From positions 1 through 64,000 of the IMG/VR virus record IMGVR_UViG_3300034060_000182: a stretch of DNA of 64,000 nt, one strand, 5' to 3'. Numbering within the stretch: the stretch's first letter is position 1; each line of letters opens with the position of its first letter. This DNA comes from a virus. The position numbers were made by a program, and so were the translations under genes. A model generated the notes under the pieces. That model was not told where the DNA came from. It made no database searches and saw nothing but the letters and a program-made list of their open reading frames with translations. Positions 1,497 to 20,045 of this stretch are shown one piece after another.

Positions 1497-2933
1497 TTAA
1501 AAAGCATTAGAAACAGCATTTTGTGCTTTTTCAGCCATTTGAGCTTTTTTACCATCATCAATGATAGTAGTACCTTCTTCTGCATAAGCAGTAACAGAAC
1601 AGTCACGATCAACTCTAACTTGTTTACCACCAGTTTTAATACATAGTGTTTTTAACTCGTCACTGAATTCCATTAATGATATTGCGTTTACTTTATAGGG
1701 TAAAGTATCATAGCCAACTTCGTCTTGACCATCATTTATAATTAATATTTCTGGTTTTTCCTGTGATAAATCTATATCTAGATTACCTAAACGTTGTTGT
1801 TCGATGTCATTAGCAATACTAGTTACAATACCACCAATATCAGTCGTACCACCATTAGGGTCGTTAGAAAACCATGTCCAGAAGTTCATTACATCTTCTC
1901 TGTTTTTAAGATGATGAAACTGTAATTTACTTGGGTTATGTATAAAGTAACTAAAGAAAACTTCAGCTTCTTCTTTCATAACGTATTTTAAACGGTCAAT
2001 GAGTATAGCATTCACCCATATCTGTTTTTCAGGATAACCCATACTACCAGAAAAATCTAATAATATAATTATCTTTTGTTTTTGTTCTTTTTTATCTACA
2101 GGTACGTTGACTGTTAAGTCTTTAGTTAAGAACTTAGTACGAAAGTTTGGAAACATTTTTTGATATAACTCTATATTGCTGAACTGAGCATAGTCACGCA
2201 TAATCTTTTTAGCGTATTGGTCAGAGTTAGATACAATTTTTTCTTCAACTTCTTTTTCTACTTTGAACTGATCACCAAGATTACCAACGATAGATATTTT
2301 ATCTAATATATCCATTTTACGCTCTTTACTTAATTCATTGAAGTCAAGTTGGTCGTTAATGTCTGCATCAGAATATATTTTTCTATCGAAGTTTAAGCTA
2401 GTTTCAAAATCAACATCTTGTTCTTCGCCACGATCACCAATCTCGCTGTTGCCACCTATTTTTTTGTAGATGGCAATAGCTTGTTCTAGTGGAGTATTAC
2501 CTGGAATAAAAGTATCAAACAAAGAATCATACAATTGTTTTTTCTTTTCATAGTCTGCAACTTCGCTTTCAGATAATTTACTTGTGTCTGAATATTTTTC
2601 TTGAAAATAATCACGCTCATCAATCATCTTGAAATAACAAACTCTAGCTAACTCTTTAATTGTATCTAAAGACTTTTCAGCCCATACATGAGTCTTAGCT
2701 TTGATGTCTGCTTTTGTAGGTGTTATATACGTAATAGGATCTTTTATAGATAAATTAGAATTATCATCTACAACACTAGCACCATTCCAAGAATAATTAG
2801 ACCATATACTTGGTTGCCAAACATTTTTAGTATAAGATTTAGAACCACCATAACCATAACCATAATCATCATAACCATAATCATCGTCATAACCATCGTT
2901 ACGACCATAATATTTACTCCAATATTTACTCAT
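1497..2933 (-). CDS. VWA-domain protein, partner of the MoxR-type ATPase
   Basis: 478 residues. The N-terminus (about residues 8-31) is a low-complexity Tyr/Asp/Gly stretch. The middle is helical and charged. The C-terminal half is a von Willebrand factor A domain: the MIDAS motif D293-F-S295-G-S297 (IIILLDFSGSMG), then GGTTDIGG supplying the later Thr and IINDGQDE supplying a further acidic residue. It lies 20 bp downstream of the AAA+ gene and shares its terminator. Adjacent MoxR and VWA genes are a known arrangement (RavA-ViaA, NorQ-NorD, CoxD-CoxE), where the pair remodels target proteins or helps metal-cofactor insertion. Which phage or host target is used here cannot be told from sequence. 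Confidence 0.88.
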   Translation of the reverse strand: MSKYWSKYYGRNDGYDDDYGYDDYGYGYGGSKSYTKNVWQPSIWSNYSWNGASVVDDNSNLSIKDPITYITPTKADIKAKTHVWAEKSLDTIKELARVCYFKMIDERDYFQEKYSDTSKLSESEVADYEKKKQLYDSLFDTFIPGNTPLEQAIAIYKKIGGNSEIGDRGEEQDVDFETSLNFDRKIYSDADINDQLDFNELSKERKMDILDKISIVGNLGDQFKVEKEVEEKIVSNSDQYAKKIMRDYAQFSNIELYQKMFPNFRTKFLTKDLTVNVPVDKKEQKQKIIILLDFSGSMGYPEKQIWVNAILIDRLKYVMKEEAEVFFSYFIHNPSKLQFHHLKNREDVMNFWTWFSNDPNGGTTDIGGIVTSIANDIEQQRLGNLDIDLSQEKPEILIINDGQDEVGYDTLPYKVNAISLMEFSDELKTLCIKTGGKQVRVDRDCSVTAYAEEGTTIIDDGKKAQMAEKAQNAVSNAF

Positions 2934-2953
2934 GTCTTGTTATTTAAGGTTAA

Positions 2954-3991
2954 TTATTCCATTATTGAAGATACAGTTTGTTTCTTAGACAAACTTGTAT
3001 ACAATTCTGTAGCTGTTTTGATTAATGAAGCGTGAGTCGAAATAAGATCGTCTGTTACAGTTAATTTTTTCATTTCTTTAATACCTGTAGCAAGTAAACC
3101 AAGATCGCTAGTAAATTTAGCTTTTTCATCAGTAGTAATCATGTTATTACTTTGTAACTCATTGATAGTAACATCAAGATCGTTAGATAATTTTCTGAAT
3201 TTTAATGTGCTTTGGTATTTTTTAAGCGTATCAGAGATTAACGTAGGTTTTTTAGCAAACTCTGCGATAAAACTTAATGAGTCTGGACCACATTCTTGAT
3301 AAACTGTATAAGCAGTTACAGCAACACGAGGTGATATTGTAATACCACCACGGTGATACTCTTGTAATAAGAATGGAATAATAGGATCTATATTACCTTC
3401 GCCGAACTTTGTTTCCAATAATTTATTGTAACTAGCTTCAGTATAATTATCCCATATAACATTTAACTCAAGTGGAAAACGTTCCATTAAAGCTTTTAAC
3501 GATGCGTTTTTAGAGAATTCTTCACGAGTACGATTAGTACAACAGATGATGAACTTTGTTTTGATAGGGAAAATCTGCGTACCATTTCTGAACACTTTAG
3601 AAGATAAAATATCTTTTAATTGTTCTAATATAAAATCAGGAGCATCGAATAATTCTTCGAATATAACATACTCGTTATTCATAAAAGAGTTTTCAACTAA
3701 GTACTCGATTTTACCTGTTTTTTCGAATGTAGGTATATCAAGACCACCGAATAATCTATCCGTAGTCATACCTGTACCCATTGTAATAACATAAGGGTCA
3801 ATACCTTTTTCAGCAAGATATGCTAATGTAAGTTCTGATTTACCGTGACCACCTGGACCATAGAGTACGATGTTTTTACCAGTCTTAAGACCAATGTCTA
3901 AGATACTAAGTGATTTGTCCATGAATACGAAGTCAGCGCCTACGCCTTGTACTTCTTCTACTACTGCTTTTGTTTTTCTAGCTGTCGCCAT
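2954..3991 (-). CDS. MoxR-type AAA+ ATPase
   Basis: 345 residues with a standard AAA+ core: Walker A GPGGHGKS at 45-52, Walker B YVIFEE at about 108-113, a sensor-1-like CCTNRTREEF stretch, and ISPRVAVTAY as a sensor-2-like segment. The order and the short C-terminal helical lid fit the MoxR/RavA group. It precedes the VWA gene by 20 bp, the usual operon for this pair. The predicted role is ATP-driven remodelling together with the VWA protein. It is not similar to a packaging ATPase or replicative helicase, and those genes are found elsewhere in the window. Confidence 0.9.
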   Translation of the reverse strand: MATARKTKAVVEEVQGVGADFVFMDKSLSILDIGLKTGKNIVLYGPGGHGKSELTLAYLAEKGIDPYVITMGTGMTTDRLFGGLDIPTFEKTGKIEYLVENSFMNNEYVIFEELFDAPDFILEQLKDILSSKVFRNGTQIFPIKTKFIICCTNRTREEFSKNASLKALMERFPLELNVIWDNYTEASYNKLLETKFGEGNIDPIIPFLLQEYHRGGITISPRVAVTAYTVYQECGPDSLSFIAEFAKKPTLISDTLKKYQSTLKFRKLSNDLDVTINELQSNNMITTDEKAKFTSDLGLLATGIKEMKKLTVTDDLISTHASLIKTATELYTSLSKKQTVSSIME

Positions 3992-4948: not shown

Positions 4949-5014
4949 TAGTCAGGCGAGGACTCGAACCTTATCCACTTTATCAGCGTGGCGCTTCCAT
5001 TCAGCTACCTGACT
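4949..5014 (-). tRNA. tRNA-Ile (GAT), compact
   Basis: The seven-base acceptor stem AGTCAGG/CCTGACT pairs perfectly. A short D-arm with AATGGAA follows, then an anticodon arm CCACG-CTGATAA-AGTGG with four of five pairs and anticodon GAT, then TTCGAGT as the T-loop on a partly paired stem. At about 66 nt it is shorter than usual because the D-loop and variable region are reduced. A hairpin at 5032-5050 lies just upstream. Confidence 0.75.
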
Positions 5015-6428: not shown

Positions 6429-6635
6429 TTACCAACCAGTTTTTAAATCATCTTCTAGTATGAAAGTCCAACCTTTGTGGTTAAACCATGAGGTTATACC
6501 TTCTTGCTCTTTATCTTCGTTATAAATGAAGGCAAATCTTTGTGGTAGATTACCAATTAAAAAACCACGGTATTCTCTTTTATTCAACCATATAGTTGAA
6601 CCTCGTCTTTTGTAAGTTTGAACTGTTGTTGACAT
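6429..6635 (-). CDS. Hypothetical protein (68 aa), first gene after promoter P2
   Basis: A 68-residue basic/aromatic protein: STTVQTYKRRGSTIWLNKRE at the start, then WFNHKGWTFILEDDLKTGW. It looks beta-rich. The ATG lies 37 bp below the GAA of promoter P2. Early host-takeover proteins of phages often have this size and position, but nothing in the sequence states a target. Confidence 0.65.
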   Translation of the reverse strand: MSTTVQTYKRRGSTIWLNKREYRGFLIGNLPQRFAFIYNEDKEQEGITSWFNHKGWTFILEDDLKTGW

Positions 6636-6672: not shown

Positions 6673-6711
6673 TTCGAATATATTATCACACTATAATATT
6701 ATTAAGTCCGT
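6673..6711 (-). promoter_or_regulatory. Bipartite phage promoter P2
   Basis: Minus strand ACGGACTTA, 15 bp, GATAATATAT, TC, GAA. Same boxes and spacing as the other five copies. It drives the 68-residue gene and probably the chain of small genes below it to about 5587. Confidence 0.85.
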
Positions 6712-6840
6712 ATAGATAATCTAGTTAGTTCTAAGGTGTGAAAATGTTTATTAGAACAAAACAGTTGAGAGGTATATTACTACATCTCTCATCATCTCTA
6801 TGCACTTTTAACCACAATATTGGTAGTATGAACGTTTAAT
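6712..6840 (-). ncRNA. Candidate short RNA downstream of promoter P3 (no clear gene)
   Basis: Promoter P3 points into this 129-bp stretch, but the only minus-strand frames are tiny (14 to 25 residues) and the next promoter begins directly afterwards. The stretch contains an imperfect stem of TGAGAG and CTCTCA arms (plus strand 6767-6792) and CCA-CAATAT-TGG at 6812-6823. It may be a small regulatory RNA, a leader, or a decayed cassette. Parts resemble the control region at 8590-8815. Confidence 0.35.
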
Positions 6841-6879
6841 TTCATATATATTATCTGAAGTGAAACAAAATAAGTCCGT
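6841..6879 (-). promoter_or_regulatory. Bipartite phage promoter P3
   Basis: Minus strand ACGGACTTA, 15 bp, GATAATATAT, AT, GAA, preceded by TGCTATACACTTC. A full match to the consensus, but with no evident gene immediately downstream. Confidence 0.85.
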
Positions 6880-7021
6880 GAAGTGTATAGCAAAAGCTAC
6901 TAAACAGGAAATAATGGCACAACAAAGTCGTTAATTTAAAAACTGTGACATTAGGGTCTTATATTATATAGTAACAGGCTATTGTCACACTTTTGTAGTG
7001 CTTACTATTGCTTCAAAAAGA

Positions 7022-8053: not shown

Positions 8054-8320
8054 TTATACTATTTCTTTTAAAGCTCTTACGAATGCTGGCAGATTATTAG
8101 TATTAGTATAACTACCGTATTTAGCGAAGCATGGCATTGCATCAAACTTAGCTTTTAATTGGTCATATACTTTATCATGATTGTATATGCATTCAACATT
8201 CTTATTGTTCATGAATGTTATTACTGTATTAGTTCCAATCAGCGATTTTCTGATTACGAATCTTTTAGTAGTTAATGCTACTTGTGGTGCTGCTGCTGCA
8301 GCTGCTGTTGATTTTGACAT
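8054..8320 (-). CDS. Early small protein, paralogue of the gene at 7059 (88 aa)
   Basis: An 88-residue protein with an Ala-rich N-terminus (STAAAAAAPQVA) followed by the conserved block LTTKRFVIRKSLIGTNTVIT and MPCFAKYGSYTN shared with the protein at 7059. It is the first gene below promoter P6. The two copies in neighbouring promoter-terminator cassettes show a local duplication. Function unknown. Confidence 0.75.
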   Translation of the reverse strand: MSKSTAAAAAAPQVALTTKRFVIRKSLIGTNTVITFMNNKNVECIYNHDKVYDQLKAKFDAMPCFAKYGSYTNTNNLPAFVRALKEIV

Positions 8321-8711: not shown

Positions 8712-8723
8712 CCATTATAATGG
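8712..8723. promoter_or_regulatory. Perfect 12-bp palindrome, operator candidate
   Basis: CCATTATAATGG is self-complementary and lies about 12 bp past the TATAAT box, over the expected start of transcription. A related site, CCAGTATAGTGG, lies at 8753-8764, 41 bp (about four helical turns) downstream, and a third, CCACAATATTGG, at 6812. Confidence 0.45.
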
Positions 8724-8752
8724 CCATTTATGCTGTTTTAAGGCACTTTTAA

Positions 8753-8764
8753 CCAGTATAGTGG
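8753..8764. promoter_or_regulatory. Second CCA-N6-TGG site
   Basis: CCAGTATAGTGG within TTTTAACCA-N6-TGG; the flank GCACTTTTAACCA is shared exactly with the site at 6812 near promoter P3. Confidence 0.4.
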
Positions 8765-18500: not shown

Positions 18501-20045
18501 ATGTCAGAAGCAATAGTTAAAAATCTAAGTTTCGGTACCGAAGCTAGTGAGAAAGTATTTGAAGGAATAAAGAAACTAACAATGGCTGTTAGTTCAACAC
18601 TAGGTGCTAGTGGTAAGTGTGTTCTTTTAGAAGATCAGTTTGGAAAACCAGTTATAACAAAAGATGGTGTTACAGTAGCTGACTCTATAATTCTATTAGA
18701 TCCTGTTGAAAACATGGGAGCAACACTATTAAAAGAAGCTGCTAGAAAAACAGTAAGAGAAGCAGGTGATGGTACAACTACCGCGACTGTTCTTGCTCAT
18801 GCTATTTTAAAGAACGCTTATGCTGTTGAAAATCCAAATGCTAGAAAAATTAAAGAAGGTATAAACAAAGCTGTTGATAAAGTTATAAAATACCTTGAAG
18901 ACATATCTATAACCGTAGAAGGTGATATGTTAGATCAAATTGCAACTATATCAACTAATAACGACCCGGAACTAGGTAAGTTAGTTGGAGATGCTTTTAG
19001 ATCTGTAGGAAACACAGGGATAGTTATGATGGAAACATCTGCTGATCCAGAGTGTAGTCTACAAGTAGTTGAAGGAGTTCAATGTGATATGGGATTAACA
19101 AACTCTCATTTCATTACTAATCAAAAAAACAAGACGGCAGAACTAGATAATCCATTAGTATTACTAATAGAATCTCCAGTAGATAGTATAAGACAGATAC
19201 AGTCTGTTTTAGAATACGTGATAAAAAATAATAAATCATTGCTTATAATTGCAGATTTAGACCAAGTGGTTTTATCTACATTAGCTATGAATAAATCAAA
19301 AGGTAACATAAAGGTAAACGTTATAAACGCTCCTACTTTTGGTGTTAATAGAAAAGAAATATTTGATGATTTAGCTTTGTTAACTGGAGCTACTTTAATC
19401 AACGAAGATCTAGGAGATGACTTAGATTTAATACAACCAGAATTACTAGGTACTTGTTTAAAGAGTATTACTAATCATGAAGAAACAATACTTCACGTGG
19501 AAGAGAGTTCTGAAGAAATATTAAATATTATAGATGATATTAAAAAATCATTACTAGAAAAGAATAGTAGTAATACTGTTATTAAACTAGAAAAAAGATT
19601 AGCACGTTTAACAGCTAAGATTGCTGTTGTAAAAGTTGGTGCTAATTCTGAGATAGAACTAAAAGAAAAAGCAGATAGAATAGAAGATGCAATCTGTGCT
19701 ACAAAAGCTGCTATTAAAGAAGGTATTGTGCCAGGTGGAGGAATCGCTTTATTAAACGCTGCTCATAGTATAGATAGTTTTTCTGATGGTGAAGAAATAT
19801 TACTAAATTCAATTAGAGCACCTTTTAATACAATATTAGATAACGCTGGAATAGAATATGCACCATTAGAATCATTTTCAAAGATTGGATATGGTCTTGA
19901 TGTAATAACAGGTAAAACTGTTAACATGATTGATGCAGGAATTATTGACCCTTTATTAGTTACTAAAAGTGCTTTAAGAAACGCTGCTTCTGTAGCTACT
20001 ACCATATTATCAACTGATTGTGTAATTAATAATTTAAGAGCATAA
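18501..20045 (+). CDS. groEL: Phage chaperonin GroEL (Cpn60)
   Basis: 514 residues, slightly shorter than cellular GroEL (about 545). ATPase residues are kept: D55 in ITKDG, D90 in GDGTTTATVL, and D396 in IEDAICATKAA followed by GGGIALLNAA. The C-terminal equatorial part (NMIDAGIIDPLLVTKSALRN) is also clear. The apical domain is divergent and shortened, and the Gly-Gly-Met tail is missing. It forms an operon with a GroES gene (TAATG overlap). It should assemble a folding chamber, perhaps for virion proteins or to replace host chaperonin. It is plainly homologous to GroEL, not a remnant. Confidence 0.96.
   Translation: MSEAIVKNLSFGTEASEKVFEGIKKLTMAVSSTLGASGKCVLLEDQFGKPVITKDGVTVADSIILLDPVENMGATLLKEAARKTVREAGDGTTTATVLAHAILKNAYAVENPNARKIKEGINKAVDKVIKYLEDISITVEGDMLDQIATISTNNDPELGKLVGDAFRSVGNTGIVMMETSADPECSLQVVEGVQCDMGLTNSHFITNQKNKTAELDNPLVLLIESPVDSIRQIQSVLEYVIKNNKSLLIIADLDQVVLSTLAMNKSKGNIKVNVINAPTFGVNRKEIFDDLALLTGATLINEDLGDDLDLIQPELLGTCLKSITNHEETILHVEESSEEILNIIDDIKKSLLEKNSSNTVIKLEKRLARLTAKIAVVKVGANSEIELKEKADRIEDAICATKAAIKEGIVPGGGIALLNAAHSIDSFSDGEEILLNSIRAPFNTILDNAGIEYAPLESFSKIGYGLDVITGKTVNMIDAGIIDPLLVTKSALRNAASVATTILSTDCVINNLRA

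Follow-up and report, generated by a model that had tools for sequence, protein, structure and literature searches.

To our knowledge, the regulatory RNAs of Bacteroidetes phages are little catalogued. Elsewhere, the putL element of HK022, about 70 nt long and located just behind PL, acts as an RNA-only antitermination element (PMC9378689). In Bacteroidetes, the −7 box of the primary sigma factor reads TAnnTTTG (PMC6847099, PMC9723704), and start regions in Flavobacterium (F. johnsoniae) favor A at position −3 and upstream (PMC6847099).

Here, we describe a noncoding element behind an early phage promoter that is most probably an RNA leader with a regulatory role, rather than a miniprotein gene or mere wreckage. 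The element is defined by coordinates, an alignment, and a profile, and its phage group has cultured relatives infecting Flavobacterium and Cellulophaga. As a conserved island between unalignable flanks, the element makes an 'empty' promoter distinguishable from decay.

The DNA analyzed (the window) covers the first 64 kb of a virus record of 68 kb. Its terminase, portal, and capsid proteins have matches among phage head families; by terminase, the closest of the annotated records belongs to an uncultured podovirus of Manatee Spring, USA (64.5% identity), followed at 32–46% identity by the cultured Flavobacterium Elemovirus, Cellulophaga Baltivirus/Callevirus, and Tenacibaculum Gundelvirus. 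Judged from these relatives of its terminase and head proteins, the window is therefore a Bacteroidetes-type phage. Megablast against named phages returned no match, the genes on either side of the locus (gene A and gene 6429–6635, below) had none in the phage collection, and a search of bacterial genomes for the element's neighbor gene found no relative. Elsewhere in the window lie a full-length GroEL-like chaperonin frame, judged from its translation alone (18501–20045, plus strand, 514 aa); a MoxR-like ATPase (1497–3991, minus strand; PF20030, E 3.6e-14) adjoining a long frame that may be a vWA-type partner; and a tRNA-like sequence (4949–5014, minus strand; Rfam 42.5 bits) that ARAGORN missed; it is unusually short and may be a degenerate or atypical tRNA.

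Promoter P3 and its gene-free interval

The features of the locus, by coordinate, are:

6429–6635, minus strand: next gene downstream, coding for an uncharacterized 68-aa protein, with at least 206 viral relatives; the first gene reachable by a P3 transcript
6673–6712, minus strand: promoter P4, the tandem promoter of gene 6429–6635
about 6728–6809, minus strand: conserved noncoding leader element, about 75 nt; core 6733–6795 by an HMM from distant phages only
6732–6756, minus strand: conserved tail TTCTAATAAACATTTTCACACCTTA; relatives start translation of small gene X in this region
6766–6791, minus strand: predicted hairpin UGAGAG-A-UGUA-GUAA-UAUA-C-CUCUCA, with loop-strand AGAG pairing with 3′ CUCU; moderate covariation
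6802–6823, minus strand: operator-like repeat CCA-N6-TGGTTAAAAGTGC, common to 8743–8764 and window-specific
6841–6880, minus strand: promoter P3, CACGGACTTA (6880–6871) plus GATAATATATATGAA (6855–6841), predicted start about 6838
6944–6990, no strand assigned: second conserved element, interrupted palindrome TGTGACAATAGCC-N-CCCTAATGTCACA, upstream of P3
7023–7049, minus strand: intrinsic terminator closing the gene upstream of P3
7059–7352, minus strand: gene A, 97 aa, with a paralogue at 8054–8320 (minus strand); conserved neighbor of the element

The original prediction had read P3 as a full promoter with only very short frames before the next one, and both observations hold. The motif GGACTT-N17-ATAATATA occurs six times in the window at fixed spacing, always on the minus strand between 4766 and 8393, against 0.01 copies expected by chance; P3 is one of these six and is also among the four copies of CACGGACTTA-gap-ATAATATAT (expected 0.00). 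Its −7 box, TATATATG (6850–6843), agrees with the primary-sigma box of Bacteroidetes at five of its six conserved positions, and from the position of this box transcription is therefore expected to start near 6838. Close relatives have a promoter at the same site. The interval between P3 and P4 (6713–6840, 128 bp) holds short frames only and no gene, and no terminator-like signal was found between P3 and gene 6429–6635, including within and after the window's copy of the element, so that transcription from P3 is expected to continue across P4 into the leftward operon.

The CCA-N6-TGG site noted near this start is present (6812–6823), but the bare motif shows no excess over chance (9 found against 5.1 expected). 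Its extended form, CCA-N6-TGGTTAAAAGTGC, has two mismatch-free copies, at 6802–6823 and 8743–8764; it is not conserved in relatives, being absent from these places in the close ones, and may be a phage-specific operator. The divergent control region at 8712–8764 contains two CCA-N6-TGG sites, 41 bp apart.

Upstream of P3, the palindrome at 6944–6990 is flanked by A and T runs and recurs near the early promoters of at least 15 virus contigs, with one or two copies in each fetched locus. Because it is more conserved than a terminator needs, it is possibly a protein-binding site or a bidirectional terminator. Gene A and its paralogue are extremely conserved small proteins (TTKRFVIRKSLIGTNTVI...) with several copies per genome in many relatives; neither has a Pfam, PHROG, or PDB fold match.

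A conserved element between P3 and P4

A sequence-only profile built from 11 close copies recovered further copies of the element in many distant phages. An HMM from distant phages alone, with none from the window's own clade, has a single match in the 64-kb window, at 6795–6733 (E 6.4e-11), and a second profile finds the element in 39 of 45 whole relatives, essentially one copy each. In profile searches of the relatives, every copy is on the coding strand of the neighboring early genes; the alignment comprises 43 copies and is accompanied by a search profile. Compared with relative L014, the window has an identical promoter, then 29 nt that are no more alike than shuffled sequence (0.49 against 0.51), then the element at 82% identity; compared with L054, the 21 nt separating the element from P4 are at shuffled identity (0.38 against 0.40). 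As aligned, the element is an island of conservation between flanks that have diverged to random identity, and by these searches it is a real conserved feature of most uncultivated relatives, present once per genome.

Elemovirus, Baltivirus/Callevirus, and Gundelvirus are terminase kin, yet the sampled cultured relatives (one genome each: Elemovirus, phi19:3, phi38:1, Gundel_1) have no significant copy of the element, and neither does the uncultured Manatee Spring podovirus. At the gathering thresholds of Rfam 15, only tRNA was found in the window and relatives; weak matches to a snoRNA (E 0.02) and the type-P3 twister (E 0.69) scored far below gathering and were rejected. A scan for TTAACACCTTWAACYATG returned the known relatives plus about 10 chance matches within unrelated genes.

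Potential stems had been noted in this stretch, and one is indeed present as the predicted hairpin at 6791–6766. Covariation of the stems in relatives, proposed as a check, was found at p of about 0.003 with 29 distinct copies but fades once near relatives are removed. In this test, which compares pairing within a sequence to pairing across sequences, helix S1 around the AGAG loop gave p 0.003 and helix S2, formed by the loop AGAG with the 3′ CUCU strand, gave p 0.0016 (n=29 for both), and two negative controls gave p 0.39 and 0.81. Stricter removal of near copies left p 0.07 for S1 and 0.012 for S2 at n=21, and no significance at n=14. An outer stem between the 5′ flank and the 3′ strand had no support (p about 0.5). 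The mean folding z-score is only −0.9, RNAalifold found no consensus structure on the sequence (unstructured) alignment, and a 7-nt insertion breaks up S1 in the window copy. S1 and S2 together would make an H-type pseudoknot; this predicted fold is suggestive only.

A miniprotein of 14–25 residues, one of the products proposed for the interval, is ruled out because no short frame is conserved. The transcribed strand lacks a stop-free frame in 28 of 38 distinct element copies, no short ATG frame recurs across the copies in relatives, and the window's own 14-residue frame (6795–6751) is missing there, either stopped at once (ATG TAG, in L002) or without an ATG. Coding-frame conservation, the outcome that the original prediction had set against a regulatory RNA, was looked for in relatives and not found.

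Neighboring genes and possible roles of the element

In seven close relatives, a small gene X (81–87 aa) lies between P3 and P4 (L002, L003, L004/L020, L018, L015, L016, L019), and the tail of the element abuts its start codon; elsewhere the tail abuts the start codons of other genes. X is absent from the window, its near-twin L001, L054, and L017. The closest relatives of the window, L013 and L014 (the same phages as L003 and L002), match it at 93% in the next gene and 98% in gene A and the MoxR-like protein, and carry X. As the window nests among X-bearing phages, in a weakly supported tree, its lack of X appears to be derived. ACACCTTAGA and the P4 spacer of the window resemble their counterparts in L017 and L054, and the absence of X could reflect either its loss or an exchange with a relative lacking it. 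X belongs to no known family; structure prediction, in which an RNA-binding partner was sought, gave no close fold match, and the predicted structures of gene A and X had no fold match better than E 0.06.

A start codon follows the tail in the X clade and in L022, L095, L097, L011, L070, L125, L133, L106, L055, and L124; the next promoter follows it directly in the window, L054, L017, L066, L071, L072, L085, L110–L112, and L115, and likewise in L117, L118, L130, L134, L077, L105, and L096. In front of the element lies a close promoter (X clade, L022, L095, L097, L117), another small gene (L015, L016, L017), or gene A (L070, L124, L125, L133, L055), and in some distant genomes no sigma-A-like promoter was found close upstream. 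From these varied neighbors before and behind it, small genes therefore seem to come and go around a fixed element. A near-palindrome, GGAAGAGTAGACTCC, recurs in the early regions of more distant phages, upstream of the element in L066, L071, L085, L110–L112, and L115, and further from it in L095, L096, L118, L124, L125, and L133; it is absent from the window's interval.

The best explanation, which we hold to be somewhat probable, is a P3 transcript with a cis-acting noncoding leader element. P3 would be an active early promoter, its transcript opening with a noncoding leader, and the leader's element of about 75 nt would form a short stem whose AGAG loop pairs with the 3′ CUCU strand, followed 3′ of the pairing by a U-rich stretch and then by an unstructured A-rich tail ending ACACCUU(A). 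Acting in cis on the nascent or mature P3 transcript, the element may tune elongation, processing, or translation downstream. In sister phages, gene X would follow with its start codon right behind the tail; in the window phage, where X is absent, the leader would run through P4 into gene 6429–6635 and the leftward early operon. We infer that the element is transcribed, acts at the RNA level, and acts in cis. Weighing against this reading are the fading covariation, the lack of an RNAalifold consensus, the modest folding z-score, the disrupted S1 of the window copy, and the distant genomes in which no sigma-A-like promoter was found close upstream. A cis-acting leader is favored since, in phages that carry X, translation of X starts at this tail, with A at −3, and it is favored over a free small RNA because no terminator precedes the next gene.

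Such a free, trans-acting RNA of about 75–110 nt, made from P3, ended or processed near the U-rich stretch, and regulating host or phage transcripts, is unlikely. It would have its own promoter with no gene behind, and the gene-free layout in many relatives, the roughly single copy per genome, the inconstant neighbor genes, and a strong stem directly followed by UUUUU in L124 are all consistent with it. However, a terminator or defined 3′ end of its own is missing before gene 6429–6635 in the window, the tail doubles as a gene start region in about a dozen relatives, and several genomes have the element within an operon, immediately after a gene. The regulatory RNA originally suggested thus survives as a conserved noncoding element but stays hypothetical as a separate small RNA.

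Quite unlikely is a nascent-RNA element that modifies RNA polymerase, as HK022 put does, and permits read-through of leftward-operon terminators. The position just behind the early promoter of a long operon agrees with this reading, as do a length near 70 nt and a single copy whichever gene follows, putL being about 70 nt and just behind PL (PMC9378689). Against it, no Rfam family matches, no resistant terminators were identified downstream, and in L015–L017 and others the element lies behind another gene, although putR is about 270 nt downstream, so distance need not exclude it.

That the stretch is a pure remnant, the functionless and decaying leader of a lost small gene, is very unlikely. 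The decayed cassette originally suggested is right insofar as X is absent between P3 and P4 by comparison with L013 and L014, the closest relatives, with which the window nests, and the window copy has lost stem S1 through its 7-nt insertion. Yet the element stays 82% identical while both flanks look neutral, at shuffled level, and the gene-free arrangement is kept in L054 and L017, each with its own diverged flanks, and is common in distant phages; the element is therefore not just a ruin. A DNA-level control site, whether an operator or an upstream element of P4, is likewise very unlikely: the tail directly abuts the next promoter in many distant phages and S1 pairing is strand-symmetric, but in X-bearing phages the tail adjoins a start codon and the next promoter is 250 nt away, and covariation of S2 is stronger on the transcribed strand (p 0.0016 against 0.07).

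Comparison with known systems

The likeness to preQ1-I riboswitches, which are small H-type pseudoknot aptamers, lies in the AGAGG...ACACCUCU helix strands, the pseudoknot-like loop pairing, and the location upstream of a start codon, and is superficial. No Rfam match to preQ1-I was obtained even at E up to 10 (L070 and window), and on the 3′ side of its stem the element is rich in U instead of A. With ordinary Bacteroidetes 5′ leaders, which have no Shine-Dalgarno sequence and an A-rich start region, the element shares its A-rich tail before ATG, in keeping with the F. johnsoniae preference for A at −3 and upstream (PMC6847099); it differs in being conserved over about 75 nt and in being kept where no start codon follows.

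Like HK022 putL/putR, the element lies behind an early phage promoter (P3) and is of about the same size. In contrast to them, it has no Rfam match, belongs to another host phylum, and is not tied to one promoter distance, and antitermination is only hypothetical here. Put RNA is characterized by two stem-loops that bind the zinc-binding domain of RNAP beta-prime and suppress termination; a pair of long stem-loops is not obvious in the element's predicted fold. The element might represent a new class of early control elements made of RNA alone in phages of Bacteroidetes, small and pseudoknot-like, about one per genome, acting on polymerase or freed as a regulatory RNA, and staying in place while small genes swap around it, a prospect we regard as rather unlikely. 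We consider it a new element of a familiar general type, that of phage leaders or regulatory RNAs.
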